From contig PNJQ01000010.1 in the NCBI GenBank assembly GCA_013821985.1, positions 1 through 64,000 of the forward strand: a stretch of DNA of 64,000 nucleotides, written 5' to 3'. Of the stretch, positions 2,707-55,648 are shown in pieces. The position numbers were made by a program, and so were the translations under genes. The stretch comes from Opitutus sp. (GTDB lineage Bacteria; Verrucomicrobiota; Verrucomicrobiia; Opitutales; Opitutaceae). The notes beneath the pieces were generated by a model. It had not been told where the DNA came from, did not search any database, and was given only the letters and a program-made list of their open reading frames with translations. The first letter of the stretch is position 1. Every line of letters begins with the position of its first letter.

Positions 2707-4212
2707 ATGGCCAAGACGCATTCTGATATCGGACTCATCGGCCTCGCCGTCATGGGTCAGAACCTCGCGCTGAATATCGCCGACCACGGCTTCCGGATCT
2801 CGGTTTACAACCGCACCACCGAGAAAACCGACAAGTTCGTAGCCGAAAACCCGGCCACGCCGGGCGGCCTTGTCGCCACGAAGACGTTGCAGGAATTCGC
2901 CGCGTCGCTCGCGAAGCCGCGCAAAGCGATCATCCTCGTCCAGGCCGGCAAGGCCACCGACGCCGTCATCGACGGCCTCGTCGCGGTCTTCGAGCCGGGC
3001 GACATCATCATCGACGGCGGCAACGCGCTGTGGACCGACACGATCCGCCGCGAAAAGGCGCTGCGTGAAAAGAATCTGCGCTTCATCGGCTCCGGCGTTT
3101 CCGGCGGCGAGGAAGGCGCGCGCTTCGGTCCGTCGCTCATGCCCGGCGGCGACGCGGCGGCGTTTGCGGAGCTGAAACCGATCTGGGAAGCCGTCGCCGC
3201 GAAGGTGGACGCGAAGACCGGCAAGCCGATCCCCGGCGCCAAGCCCGGCCAGCCTGTCACGGGGGGCGTGCCCTGCACGACCTACATCGGCGAAAACGGC
3301 GCGGGCCACTACGTGAAGATGGTCCACAACGGCATCGAGTATGGCGACATGCAGATGATTTGTGAGGCCTACGCGCTCATGTCCGGCCTGCTCGGCCTCA
3401 AGCCGGCGGAACAAGCGGAGATTTTTGGCGAGTGGAACCAGGGCGCGCTCGACAGCTTTCTGATCGAGATCACGGCCGACATTCTTCGCCAAAAAGATCC
3501 CGTGACCAAACGGAAGGCCTTCGTCGATGTCGTCCTCGACACCGCGGGCCAGAAAGGCACTGGCAAGTGGACCTCGACCAACGCCCTCGACATGGGCGTC
3601 CCCGCGCCGACGATTGCCGAGGCGGTGTTCGCCCGCTGCATCTCCGCGATTAAGGAAGAACGCGTCGCTGCATCGAAAATCCTGAAAGGCCCCGCGAAAA
3701 AATACCGCGGCTCGAAGAAGGCACTCATTCAGGCGATCCACGATGCGCTCTACTGCTCGAAGATCTGTTCCTACGCGCAGGGCTTCCAGCTCATGCGCAC
3801 CGCGCAACAGGAATACAACTGGAAGCTCAACTTCGGCGAGATCGCGCAGATCTGGCGCGGCGGGTGTATCATCCGCGCGGCGTTCCTCCAGAAAATCACC
3901 GAAGCCTACGCGCGGAAGCCCGACCTCGCGAACCTGCTCCTCGATCCGTATTTCAACAAGACGGTGAAGAACGCGCAGGCCAACTGGCGCAAGGTCGTCG
4001 CGCTTGCCGCCGAGTGCGGCGTGCCGGCGCCGACGTTCTCGTCCGCCCTCGCCTACTACGACAGCTACCGCTCCGCGCGCCTACCCGCGAATTTGCTGCA
4101 GGCGCAACGCGACTACTTCGGCGCGCACACCTACGAGCGCGTTGACCAGCCGCGCGGAAAATTCTTCCACGTCGATTGGCCGGAGCCGACGCGTCCGCAG
4201 CTCAACGCCTGA
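2707..4212 (+). CDS. gnd: 6-phosphogluconate dehydrogenase, decarboxylating
   Basis: Catalyses NADP-dependent oxidation and decarboxylation of 6-phosphogluconate to ribulose 5-phosphate in the oxidative pentose phosphate pathway. The 501-residue product has the N-terminal dinucleotide motif GLAVMGQN (about 12-19), the [20 protein letters not shown] substrate-binding region and the catalytic-lysine motif [13 protein letters not shown] near residue 204. A segment containing [16 protein letters not shown] before VPCTTYIG looks like the extra loop seen in some homologues. The ATG at 2707 immediately precedes the Rossmann fold; the open frame from 2584 is not needed. No other pentose-phosphate gene is adjacent. 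Confidence 0.96.
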
Positions 4213-40623: not shown

Positions 40624-40686
40624 GCACCCGACCAAACGCGCACGTCGCGCGCCTCCGTGAAGCGCGCGGCGCAACGCAACCTGGAG

Positions 40687-40707
40687 CCGGGGGGCGGTGC
40701 CCCCCGG
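40687..40707. terminator. GC-rich hairpin between convergent genes
   Basis: A perfect 9-bp stem CCGGGGGGC/GCCCCCCGG with a 3-nt loop lies between the TIGR01777 gene and the convergent small gene at 40730. There is no U-tract, so its terminator role is uncertain. Confidence 0.4.
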
Positions 40708-40729
40708 GCGGCAAAACGTCGAAGCGACC

Positions 40730-40999
40730 CTAGACGGAATACTTGCTCTTCTCGGGCTCGCAGTCGCGCATGCCTTCGTAGGCGTGAACGGAGCCGGCGG
40801 TGTCGGCCCACAGCGGGAGGTTGTTCTCCTTGGAGCGGGCGAGGTTGATGATTTCGGCCTGCACCGCGGGATCGCGCGCCTCGAGCATGAGGCGGTTGAG
40901 GGCGGCATAGGCGATGTCCTCGGGCTGCACATGCAGCGCGCGGGCGAGGCGGTTGACCGGGTGCATCTCGGCTTCGTCGAGACGGATCTTGATGGACAT
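40730..40999 (-). CDS. small protein of unknown function, 89 aa
   Basis: No family is recognised. The middle (VNRLARALHVQPEDIAYAAL) is helical and reminiscent of ribbon-helix-helix or antitoxin-like proteins, but no toxin gene is adjacent. It is preceded by a strong Shine-Dalgarno site, AGGAGG ending 5 nt before the ATG, which is rare among the genes of this window. This supports it being a real, well-translated gene. Confidence 0.65.
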   Translation of the reverse strand: MSIKIRLDEAEMHPVNRLARALHVQPEDIAYAALNRLMLEARDPAVQAEIINLARSKENNLPLWADTAGSVHAYEGMRDCEPEKSKYSV

Positions 41000-52924: not shown

Positions 52925-54577
52925 TCAGCCGATGCCTCGCCGCAAGCTGATGACGCACTCCAGGTGGCGCGTTTGCGGAAACAGGTCGAACGGCTGCACC
53001 GCGGTGAGCTCGTATCCGGCCGCGAGGAAACGCTTCAGGTCGCGCATCTGCGTGGCCGGATCGCAGGAGACATAAACGACCGCGCGCGGACCGAACGCGA
53101 AGAGCTGCGCGAGAAACGATTCGTCGCACCCTTTGCGCGGCGGATCGATCACGACGACGGTCTCCGTCGGCGCAAACGTCGCGTCGAGTCCGGCAAAGAT
53201 CGTCGCGGCATCGCCCGCGGAAAACGTGGCATTTGCGATGCCGTTGGCGGCGGCGTTTTCGCGCGCGAACTGCACCGAGGTCGCGCTCACCTCGACGCCT
53301 GCGACGCGCTCGAACGCCGGCGCGCAACTCAGCGCGAACAACCCGCTGCCGCAGTATGCATCGACGAGGAAACGCGCCCCCGCCGCCGCCGCCTGGTCGC
53401 GCACGTAGCCCGTGAACGCCGGCAGGATGAACGGATTGTTCTGAAAGAAGTCGCGCGCCAGAAAATGCAGCCGCAGCGGCGGGCGAGGCGCCGCCGCTGT
53501 TGTTGTCGCCGGGGACGCCGCCGCCGTTGTCGCCGGCCTCGCTGAGGCCGGGCCGGGGTCAGCGACCCCGGCTACATCTGCAGCAACAGAACTGGCCGCC
53601 GGCCCGATGACTTCGTGAATGATGGCGTCGTAGTCGGTCACGACACCTTCCTGGGCGTGGCGGAGGAGCAGCGTGGCACCGCGGTCGTAGGCGCCGGCGG
53701 CGAGCTTGGCGCGGGTGGCGGCGCGGACTTCGGTGAGCTTCGTGTTGATCTCGGGCGTTGCGATCGGGCACGCGGGCACATCGATCAGATCGAAACGCGA
53801 ACCTTGTTTTAAAAAGCCGATCGGTGGGACAAATTCGCCGCCGGTTCCAGTGGCGGGTTGAGGTGAAGCAGCAGCCGGCGAGGACGTGTCCTCGGGTGTT
53901 CCGCTTTCCGCGTTCTGTGTTCCGCGCATTTCACTCCGCCGCGGCGCCGCGAAGTGCGGCGTGATCTTCGAGCGATAGCCGTAATCACGCGGCGACGGAA
54001 TCGTCGATGCGACGGGGAACGCGACGCCAGCCATGTGTTGCAACAGCTCCTCCACCTGCCGCCGCTTCCACGCGAGTTGCTCGGCGTAGGTGAGGTGCTG
54101 GTATTGGCAGCCGCCACAGCAGCCGAAGAGCGGGCACGGCGCCGTGATGCGGTGCGGTGACGGCGTGAGGACTTCGAGCAGGTCGGCTTCGGAGAAATTC
54201 TTGTGATTGCGATAGACCCGGGCGCGCACCCGTTCGCCGGGCAACGTGAAGGGGACCATTACGACCCATCCGCCGTCGCTCCGCCCCGCGGAGCTTTGGC
54301 GAGACTCTGGTCCCGAAGAATTTTGGATTCTCGATTTTGGATTTGGCTGAGGCTCTTCGAGCTGGACGATTTCCGGATCCGTTGCCGCGGGTTCAGCTGC
54401 GGGCGTCTGGGGCGGTTCGCCGGTTGTGGCAGGCCGACCGCTCACTGCGGACTGCTCACCGCTCACGATCTTCACCCGCCCCAGGCCCACGCCGTGGTTC
54501 GTGAGCGTGGAAATCTCCAGCTCGATCTCGGTGCGATACGGGAAGGGATGGTCGTTGAATTTTTTCTTTCGGCCCAC
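52925..54577 (-). CDS. RlmD/TrmA-type 23S rRNA or tRNA m5U methyltransferase with inserted repeats
   Basis: SAM-dependent uridine-C5 methyltransferase. Visible are an N-terminal TRAM-like strand (TEIELEISTLTNHGVGLGRV), the Fe-S cysteine set CPLFGCCGGCQYQH plus a Cys in VPACPIATPE, the SAM motif DAYCGSGLFAL, IDPPRKGCDE and catalytic Cys in VYVSCDPATQ. So the enzyme core is complete. Three segments (about 54200-54475, 53830-53945 and 53495-53580) do not belong to the family and hold repeat-like or palindromic DNA, all in frame. The start is uncertain: GTG at 54577 is used; the frame is open to an ATG at 54670 through another repeat. Confidence 0.85.
   Translation of the reverse strand: MGRKKKFNDHPFPYRTEIELEISTLTNHGVGLGRVKIVSGEQSAVSGRPATTGEPPQTPAAEPAATDPEIVQLEEPQPNPKSRIQNSSGPESRQSSAGRSDGGWVVMVPFTLPGERVRARVYRNHKNFSEADLLEVLTPSPHRITAPCPLFGCCGGCQYQHLTYAEQLAWKRRQVEELLQHMAGVAFPVASTIPSPRDYGYRSKITPHFAAPRRSEMRGTQNAESGTPEDTSSPAAASPQPATGTGGEFVPPIGFLKQGSRFDLIDVPACPIATPEINTKLTEVRAATRAKLAAGAYDRGATLLLRHAQEGVVTDYDAIIHEVIGPAASSVAADVAGVADPGPASARPATTAAASPATTTAAAPRPPLRLHFLARDFFQNNPFILPAFTGYVRDQAAAAGARFLVDAYCGSGLFALSCAPAFERVAGVEVSATSVQFARENAAANGIANATFSAGDAATIFAGLDATFAPTETVVVIDPPRKGCDESFLAQLFAFGPRAVVYVSCDPATQMRDLKRFLAAGYELTAVQPFDLFPQTRHLECVISLRRGIG
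53528..53576. repeat. 49-nt palindromic element inside the RlmD-like gene
   Basis: The element has ends TGTCGCCGG and CCGGCTACA and two internal hairpins (CCGGCCTC/GAGGCCGG and GCCGGGG/CCCCGGC). It differs at 3 of 49 bases from the copy at 55141-55189. In the gene it encodes VAGVADPGPASARPAT, so its reading orientation is opposite to that of the other copy. Confidence 0.75.
53879..53926. repeat. palindrome and TTCCGC repeats inside the RlmD-like gene
   Basis: CGAGGAC-GT-GTCCTCG is a perfect palindrome, followed by TTCCGC-type units (GTGTTCCGC, TTTCCGCG, TGTGTTCCGCGC). It lies in the second non-family insertion (RGTQNAESGTPEDTSS) and has intergenic-repeat character. Confidence 0.5.
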
Positions 54578-54579
54578 GG

Positions 54580-54600
54580 ACACCACGAAAGACACGAAAC
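54580..54600. repeat. CACGAAA repeat at the 5' end of the RlmD-like gene
   Basis: Units CACGAAAGACACGAAAC match the repeat at 31709-31740. It lies at the unclear 5' end of the RlmD-like gene, so the real start may be downstream of it. Confidence 0.5.
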
Positions 54601-54626
54601 CGGCCGACGGAAGCTCTTTCGGAGTG

Positions 54627-54750
54627 GCCCGCCAATTGCGCGAATTCACGCGAATCATCGCCTGGCACATTGCTGAAATGAGGGCGCGCGGAAGGTTCGG
54701 AAAGGCGGTTCACGGACTCACATTCGCGTCCATTCGCGCAATTCGCGGGC
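54627..54750. repeat. CGCGAAT-unit inverted repeat
   Basis: The left arm 54627-54656 (GCCCGCCAATTGCGCGAATT and onward) and the right arm 54721-54750 are complementary at about 26 of 30 positions and enclose 64 nt. It is built of GCGAAT-type units at 9-10-nt spacing and sits between the divergent RlmD-like and TrmH-like genes, probably overlapping their promoters. Confidence 0.6.
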
Positions 54751-54802
54751 AAAGTTTGGTTTGGCACTTTCGAATGATTTCGTGTGTTTGGTGGTCTCCC
54801 CC

Positions 54803-55648
54803 GTGACCGAAAAAATCACCAGTCTCCAAAATCCCCGCGTGAAGCAGCTCGTGCGGTTGCGCGAGCGGCGGGAGCGTGACGAGCTCAGCCTGTTTCTCGT
54901 CGAGGGCTACCGCGAGGTGCGGCGGGCGCTGGAGAAAAACATCGCGCTGCGGGAACTCTATTTTTGCCCGGACTGGTTTCTCGGCGAAAACGAACCGGCG
55001 CTAATCGAGCAGGCGCGGGCTGCGGGCGCGCAACTGTTCGAATTGTCGAAGGACGCGTTTGCGAAGGTCGCCTACCGCGAGCGGCCGGACGGTCTGCTTG
55101 CCGTCGTGCCGCAGTGGAAGCGCTCGCTGGCGGATTTGGCTGTAGCCGGCCTCGGTGAGGCCGGGCCGGGGCCAGCGACCCCGGCTACAGGGAAAGCGCC
55201 GTTCCTCCTTGTCTGCGAGTCGATCGAAAAACCCGGCAACCTCGGCACGATCCTGCGCAGCGCGGACGCGGCTGGCTGCGACGCACTCATTCTCTGCGAC
55301 GCCGTCACGGATCTCTTCAACCCCAACGTCGTGCGCGCCTCCACCGGCGTGCTCTTTTCGGTTCCGGTCGTCGTTTCCGACACCGCGACGGTCCACGCGT
55401 GGTTGAAACAAAAGGGCATCCGCACCGCCGCGACGACTCCGCACACGCCGAATCTCTACACGCAAACTGACCTCCGCGGCCCGCTGGCGGTGGTCATGGG
55501 CAGCGAGCAATACGGCTTGAGCGCCTTCTGGATGAAGAACGCCGACGTGCTCGTCCGCATTCCGATGGCCGGCCAGGCCGACTCGCTCAACGTCGCGATG
55601 GCGACGATCATCACGCTCTTCGAAGCGGTGCGCCAGCGGAACGGCTGA
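54803..55648 (+). CDS. TrmH/SpoU family RNA 2'-O-methyltransferase
   Basis: 281 residues: an RNA-binding N-terminal part (KITSLQNPRVKQLVRLRERR, FLVEGYREVRRALE) and the SPOUT knot with CESIEKPGNLGTILRSADAA (motif 1), VVMGSEQYGLS (motif 2) and IPMAGQADSLNVAMA (motif 3). Family members methylate 23S rRNA or tRNA. Between LADLA and KAPFLLV lies an extra stretch VAGLGEAGPGPATPATG encoded by the 49-nt palindrome. The start is GTG at 54803, matching the family N-terminus (TEKITSLQNP). Confidence 0.93.
   Translation: MTEKITSLQNPRVKQLVRLRERRERDELSLFLVEGYREVRRALEKNIALRELYFCPDWFLGENEPALIEQARAAGAQLFELSKDAFAKVAYRERPDGLLAVVPQWKRSLADLAVAGLGEAGPGPATPATGKAPFLLVCESIEKPGNLGTILRSADAAGCDALILCDAVTDLFNPNVVRASTGVLFSVPVVVSDTATVHAWLKQKGIRTAATTPHTPNLYTQTDLRGPLAVVMGSEQYGLSAFWMKNADVLVRIPMAGQADSLNVAMATIITLFEAVRQRNG
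55141..55189. repeat. 49-nt palindromic element inside the TrmH-like gene
   Basis: Starts TGTAGCCGGCC and ends CCGGCTACA, with two hairpins (8-bp stem with GGT loop, and a 7-bp GCCGGGG/CCCCGGC stem). It encodes VAGLGEAGPGPATPAT within a loop of the TrmH domain. The only other copy in the window is in the RlmD-like gene. Confidence 0.75.

Follow-up and report, generated by a model that had tools for sequence, protein, structure and literature searches.

Two RNA methyltransferase genes in a 64,000-nucleotide stretch of Opitutus sp. DNA (positions 1 to 64,000 of contig PNJQ01000010.1, GenBank assembly GCA_013821985.1; hereafter the window) each contain, in frame, nearly the same 49-nt palindromic element. 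What is this element, and how can two coding sequences accommodate it? A first reading made from the sequence alone had proposed a mobile or gene-converted repeat that tolerates coding sequence in either orientation. We find that the two elements are almost certainly non-autonomous GTAG-type dimers of repetitive extragenic palindromic (REP) sequences, or REPINs (REP doublets forming hairpins), of the type that belongs with REP-associated tyrosine transposases (RAYTs), and that in this genus the dimers fall into a short form found mostly inside genes and a longer form found between them.

The two elements and their host genes

The features concerned are the following:

52925-54670, minus strand: host gene 1, 23S rRNA (uracil-1939-C5)-methyltransferase RlmD (TIGR00479, above cut-off)
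53528-53576, no strand assigned: 49-nt REP dimer in rlmD; units 53528-53551 (+) and 53553-53576 (-), spacer base 53552; codes VAGVADPGPASARPAT on the minus strand
54761-55648, plus strand: host gene 2, SpoU/TrmH-family RNA methyltransferase (start codon position provisional)
55141-55189, no strand assigned: 49-nt REP dimer in the SpoU/TrmH-type gene; units 55141-55164 (+) and 55166-55189 (-), spacer base 55165; codes VAGLGEAGPGPATPAT on the plus strand

The rlmD assignment rests on a TIGR00479 score of 254.8 bits (cut-off 183.55). Each element consists of two inverted 24-nt units, TGTAGCCGGNNTCNNTGANNCCGG, and one spacer base, and the two elements differ on the plus strand at 3 of 49 bases (46/49 alike), as the sequence-only reading had counted. 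Within the unit the tetranucleotide GTAG stands directly 5' of the hairpin (TGTAG followed by CCGGNNTC..GANNCCGG); in the RlmD copy the left unit reads TGTCG instead, with GTCG for GTAG. The termini had been described as common to both elements, which is correct for the right end (CCGGCTACA in both) but one base off at the left end, where TGTAGCCGG at 55141 corresponds to TGTCGCCGG at 53528. When folded as single-stranded DNA each element forms two hairpins (z -4.6 and -3.7). The elements do stand in opposite orientation relative to the host frames, with rlmD on the minus and the TrmH-type gene on the plus strand, and both frames stay open through them. In RlmD the element makes up residues 366-381, flanked by the TRAM (126-165) and methyltransferase (409-578) matches, and in the TrmH-type protein it makes up approximately residues 118-134 if these are counted from 54788, between the substrate-binding match (end at 105-108) and the SpoU_methylase match (139-277).

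Copy number, pairing and a candidate transposase

The genome of the window (G000; 3.74 Mb in 117 contigs, 79% complete) contains 43 exact 24-nt units (22 forward, 21 reverse), and the reversed pattern used as a control has no match in its 3.74 Mb, so the repeat is beyond chance; the element is abundant elsewhere in the genome, absence from which would have spoken against an element origin in the sequence-only reading. Allowing one mismatch raises the number to 81 (39 on the plus and 42 on the minus strand), dispersed over many contigs. At the same threshold 11 of 29 relatives have at least one unit: 98 units occur in the congener G001, 177 in G015, which belongs to another genus, and no more than 9 in any of the remaining nine. 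Inverted doublets dominate the loci fetched from G000 and G001 (95 pairs and 15 single units). A scan of public genomes for the dimer returned at least 118 stretches, 80 loci of which were examined; these come from records of Verrucomicrobia, Planctomycetes, Lentisphaerae and Kiritimatiellaeota, with Opitutaceae and Gemmataceae represented. It is the GTAG adjoining a hairpin, the inverted doublets and the high copy number that lead us to the GTAG REP/REPIN identity.

RAYT genes lie between identical units in two relatives. In G001 (locus L143) a 153-aa RAYT is situated between a doublet and a unit that starts directly after the RAYT stop codon, and in G015 (L144) a RAYT has the same unit on both sides, in a layout like that of L143 with different neighbouring genes. 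The two proteins score 113.9 and 101.1 bits, respectively, against NCBIfam NF047646 REP_Tyr_transpos and so exceed its cut-off of 80, and that of G001 matches E. coli TnpAREP 4er8 with E 6.7e-10. These are the only two of the 30 RAYT loci examined that are flanked by a window-type unit; at least two nearby GTAG hairpins of different sequence occur in 12 of the other 28 loci of relatives, a count made without control. (Such hairpins of other sequence were seen near the RAYT at L404, L405, L406, L413, L414 and L425-L431, and several flank the gene on both sides.) From this arrangement it would appear that a RAYT of the L143 and L144 type mobilises the elements studied here. CT, the reported TnpAREP cleavage dinucleotide (excerpted text of PMC8266576), directly precedes GTAG at 43 of 84 short-pair ends and 46 of 106 long-pair ends, where C makes up 33% of all bases; this modest excess, given without a significance test, is in line with TnpAREP cleavage and lends mobilisation by a RAYT weak support. 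No target-site duplication is apparent by eye at the TrmH-type site, and the remaining sites are too variable to judge.

The divergent RAYT-like gene at C29 of G000 (L054) was considered as the mobiliser and rejected, as it is bounded by a different inverted repeat of its own, GGGTCAGGCTTTGTAG, and its score is 61.9 against the NCBIfam cut-off of 80; a long REP pair lies 73 nt downstream of its stop. Two RAYT-like genes of G000 lie within perfect 24-nt inverted repeats that start GGGTCAGGC (L054:1407-1430 and 2425-2448; L056:910-933 and 1903-1926), and they recall the terminal-inverted-repeat-flanked transposases (TIRYT) of PMC3733652.

Most short pairs lie in genes and the longer pairs between them

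Where, then, do the other copies lie? All listed units of G000 and G001 were taken with their flanks (the window copies from the window), and gene context was called by a purpose-built codon model, not by a gene finder; the size counts leave out the 15 single units (9 in G000, 6 in G001). Pairs shorter than 70 nt are gene-internal in 34 of 42 cases, while none of the 53 pairs of 74-86 nt is (Fisher p 1.7e-18). The 34 include one doubtful match (L224:5622; 5 and 2 mismatches), without which the count is 33/41, and coding strand was counted on these 33 pairs. Of the eight short pairs not called internal, six touch or overlap a likely gene:

L190 and L231: nuoC C-termini
L222: open reading frame (ORF) of pyruvate dehydrogenase (PDH) E1/E2
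L239: degenerate copy in the PDH E2 gene
L178 and L217: ORF starts
L206 and L205 (the remaining two): the former flanks a RAYT, the latter is without gene call

Near-identical repeats occupy about 26 different genes in addition to intergenic sites. The hosts, by best NCBIfam name (some below cut-off), include gcvP, sucB, lpd, PDH E2, ileS, murF, purL (two copies), recD2 (two copies), purK, uvrA, nuoG, nuoM, monomeric isocitrate dehydrogenase, a resistance-nodulation-division (RND) permease and ABC-F proteins, as well as nuoC with the element near its C-terminus; among 30 scanned ORFs one (L157) had no NCBIfam match at E 1e-20. The one long copy that was folded (L227) forms a single long hairpin, and the two short copies of the window form two hairpins each. 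REPs are named as extragenic, and the long pairs agree with the name; the short pairs do not. This is no ground for excluding the short pairs from the GTAG REPs, because Table 1 of PMC3733652 lists intragenic units as a feature of GTAG families.

Copies in genes use one reading frame and are partly inherited

All 34 internal copies are read in phase 1 (xxT GTA GCC GGx), in both dimer orientations, and give mostly VAG...PAT-type peptides. Phase 2 is closed in 32 of the 34, and phase 0, open in 12 of the 34, is never used; the 15 internal copies of other lineages (15/15) also use phase 1. The proposed tolerance of coding sequence in either orientation agrees with the evidence, with the restriction that it holds for one of the three frames in each orientation. 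Could stop codons keep the long form out of genes? They do not account for its absence, because its matching phase-1 frame is mostly open (51/53 on the plus and 47/53 on the minus strand).

Six of the ten short copies of G000 occupy the same place in G001, against at most 3 of 35 long pairs in the same intergenic region (p 0.0016). The match is tight on both sides in the TrmH-type gene, sucB, lpd and an ABC-F gene, and looser in nuoC (L190) and PDH E2 (L239); the RND permease is a further shared site, with a degenerate copy in G000. The rlmD copy of the window has no counterpart in G001. We read the in-gene copies as old insertions that persist as harmless in-frame linkers. Of the earlier alternatives "mobile or gene-converted", the first fits, and gene conversion between the two window copies was set aside as unneeded, since many similar copies exist elsewhere and the TrmH-type copy is shared with the congener and the rlmD copy is not.

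Homologues and insertion sites

Conservation of the same residues in most homologues, which the sequence-only reading had taken as an argument against an element, is not what the alignments give: the TrmH-type protein lacks an insert at the site in 12 of the 16 relatives aligned, and 7 of 17 relatives of RlmD have no linker at all. As for the other TrmH-type relatives, the element recurs in G001; a different dimer, degenerate and in the same frame, occupies this linker in G015; and G014 and G017 are extended there in other ways. In the RlmD proteins of G001, G002, G003, G007 and G008 a different palindrome, TGTAACCTATTAGGTTACA or a close variant of it, occurs instead, once or twice, and codes NLLGY or similar. 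The idea that every insertion adds 45 nt net (49 minus a retained GTAG) was entertained and rejected, with values of +63 in IleS, +54 in MurF and +42 in monomeric isocitrate dehydrogenase (alignments read by eye). Net differences in seven G000/G001 comparisons range from -27 to +66 nt (the codon alignment itself restricts them to multiples of three); they vary at the other sites because the loops themselves vary, and we therefore claim no exact target site.

Loops that hold a REP dimer in one species hold in another what by eye resemble seven-base repeats, namely Lpd and SucB of G003, an mmdA-like carboxylase of G008 (L211) and, similarly, Lpd of G008. The rlmD ORF of the window itself holds three low-scoring arrays of 7-base units (53898-53926, 54320-54344 and 54437-54466), which look like the loop arrays of Lpd, SucB and another protein in sister species.

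Other lineages show no general size rule

In the 80 loci listed for other lineages, the internal share is 8 of 27 among pairs of up to 58 nt and 7 of 52 among longer ones (p 0.13; two edge pairs left out), and 3 of the 22 pairs above 70 nt are internal. The codon model may miss genes in these mixed lineages, so that "not internal" is not proof of an intergenic position there. A general rule that short pairs lie in genes is rejected on these loci, and since the short pairs of other lineages are mostly not internal, the size split of this genus would require a lineage history of its own. The Gemmataceae isolate CJuql4 has many TGTAGCCGGCCTC dimers of 69-70 nt (L243, L251, L254, L256, L264, L273, L282, L303, L315 and L316); the codon model called none of the copies at these ten loci gene-internal.

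How did the short copies come to lie in genes?

The explanation that we consider probable is that these are RAYT-moved REP dimers, of which an earlier, short wave has survived in genes while the longer form is now intergenic. A RAYT, an HUH/Y1 enzyme, would recognise the GTAG-plus-hairpin unit as single-stranded DNA and move dimers; an earlier wave of the short form would have inserted widely; and copies in coding sequence would have survived only where a loop or linker was permissive and the insert was read in the single frame yielding a small flexible peptide of the VAGVADPGPGSTSPAT type. The survivors would then be held by descent, because their clean removal needs an in-frame deletion, and intergenic copies would turn over, in this genus now in the form of 74-86 nt. 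We infer the order of the waves and the loss of intergenic short copies, and we regard this historical part, in which the spreading form is now long and intergenic and the short genic copies are survivors of an earlier wave, as evenly balanced between right and wrong.

Several points weigh against this explanation. No close RAYT was found in G000 (best 37% over 98 aa), whose 79%-complete assembly may be missing it. Nineteen of the 27 pairs of up to 58 nt in other lineages are not called internal. Clean empty sites are rare, and a tidy +45 nt is seen only at the TrmH-type site. The sharing comparison covered only those G001 loci that have a unit with at most one mismatch and so missed decayed copies. 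Finally, no movement was observed.

Is a difference in age needed at all? Both forms could insert everywhere, with the longer peptide of the 79-nt form not tolerated in proteins. The open phase-1 frame of most long copies, which removes stop codons as the cause, and the folding of L227 as one long hairpin where two short copies form two each both favour such selection on length alone, and we regard it as a possible but lesser contender: it leaves unexplained the near-absence of short pairs between genes in G000 and G001 and the more frequent sharing of short copies by descent, and the three internal pairs above 70 nt in other lineages go against it. We think it rather unlikely that the short form is a separate subfamily preferring coding sequence, for example by inserting into single strands during transcription or replication or by using another transposase. 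The 34 short copies (one doubtful) in genes of two genomes and the loops of the short form, which by eye are not the same in detail as in the long form, would suit a subfamily, but the GTAG unit is identical in both forms with a similar preceding base, most 49-nt copies of other lineages are not called internal, and survival by descent suffices.

That the proteins have recruited the insert to a functional role, for instance as a regulatory linker, could be argued from the mostly conserved enzymes that host it, from the six copies common to G000 and G001 and from the different degenerate dimer that G015 has in the same TrmH-type linker. The lack of the insert in most TrmH-type relatives, the quite different inserts of the same loops in other species and the absence of a single pathway common to the hosts make it improbable. 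Ala/Gly/Pro-rich linkers are common, so that one might even think of a conserved cellular linker peptide whose palindrome is due to chance or codon bias; with the peptide absent from most homologues and near-identical repeats in so many genes and intergenically, we give this next to no weight, the 43 exact units and the insert-free TrmH-type homologues having already refuted it.

A wider reading is that a REPIN population may have split within one genus into a coding-adapted short form (fixed frame, a harmless linker of 15-16 residues, inheritance in conserved enzymes) and an intergenic longer form, and permissive protein loops may be a habitat for several repeat families, as the same loops accept unrelated in-frame repeats in sister species; we put this forward tentatively.

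Relation to known palindromic repeats

The sequence-only reading knew of no named equivalent, but GTAG-tagged REP dimers have one in GTAG-17 of O. terrae. Di Nocera et al. (2013; PMC3733652, cited here from its main-text sections) described GTAG families in the Planctomycetes-Verrucomicrobia-Chlamydiae (PVC) group, among them GTAG-17 with head-to-head dimers 1-2 bp apart, found O. terrae to be the species richest in intragenic GTAG REPs and suggested that insertions possibly lie in flexible linkers or loops. In-gene GTAG dimers are thus a known kind of element. The O. terrae REPs are like ours in the GTAG tag, the stem-loop, the head-to-head dimers 1-2 bp apart, the occurrence in Verrucomicrobia and the copies in conserved genes including uvrA; our match to GTAG-17 was made by the 1-2 bp dimer spacer alone, not by letter-by-letter identity of the family with the window unit. 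Neither the division by size nor the use of one frame nor the inheritance of shared copies is reported in the main-text sections considered of that paper, and as far as these go all three are new; among the papers listed by the literature searches none deals with a division by size or a one-frame rule in GTAG REPs.

In the REPINs of Pseudomonas fluorescens SBW25 (Bertels and Rainey 2011; excerpts of PMC3116915) inverted REP doublets are likewise the replicating unit and the REPs are RAYT-associated, but they are treated there as extragenic, whereas the short form here lies inside genes. The earlier comparison with the Rickettsia palindromic elements (RPE) is a good likeness in behaviour, both being palindromic repeats in frame within conserved genes (PMC2229807 and PMC3733652, as excerpted). 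RPE differ in their length of 105-146 bp, against 49 nt and a GTAG tag here, and RPE-4 and RPE-6, with which the intragenic CGTC repeats of R. conorii were equated, belong to a sister class, the CGTC REPs, for which the main text of PMC3733652 gives no transposase association, unlike GTAG with an adjacent RAYT. The Neisseria Correia/NEMIS elements, a family unrelated to GTAG REPs, offer a parallel (excerpts of PMC2229807), with a 107 bp class abundant in genes and a 155 bp class almost only intergenic; that split goes with stop codons in the longer form, whereas the long form here is mostly open in the relevant frame.

In this genus, then, one size class of a repeat named for its extragenic position lives within genes, where its copies are read in one frame and some of them go back to a common ancestor. 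The genes affected include those for isoleucyl-tRNA synthetase, UvrA, MurF, PurL, RecD2 and subunits of NADH dehydrogenase and 2-oxoglutarate dehydrogenase, which makes the copies a natural experiment on the tolerance of proteins to inserts and allows two forms of one mobile element to be contrasted.

Other palindromic sequences

At approximately 40680-40740 of the window, on the minus strand, there is a strong GC hairpin ending CCCCCCGGCTCCA, close to the REP terminus in sequence, which may be a terminator or the remnant of a decayed unit. A second family of in-frame palindromes, GTAACCYAWTRGGTTAC, has no match in the window at up to three mismatches and 41 matches with at most one mismatch in 431 loci (overlapping loci counted separately). 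It is read as CNLLGY/SNPIGY in long ORFs, RlmD included; its copies are often paired at a distance of 54 or 66 nt (both divisible by three) and sometimes stand alone, with examples at the following positions:

GTAACCYAWTRGGTTAC family: L082:1062-1132 and 3159-3229; L080:1062-1144 and 3149-3231; L083:414-496 and 2673-2755; L190:12106-12176

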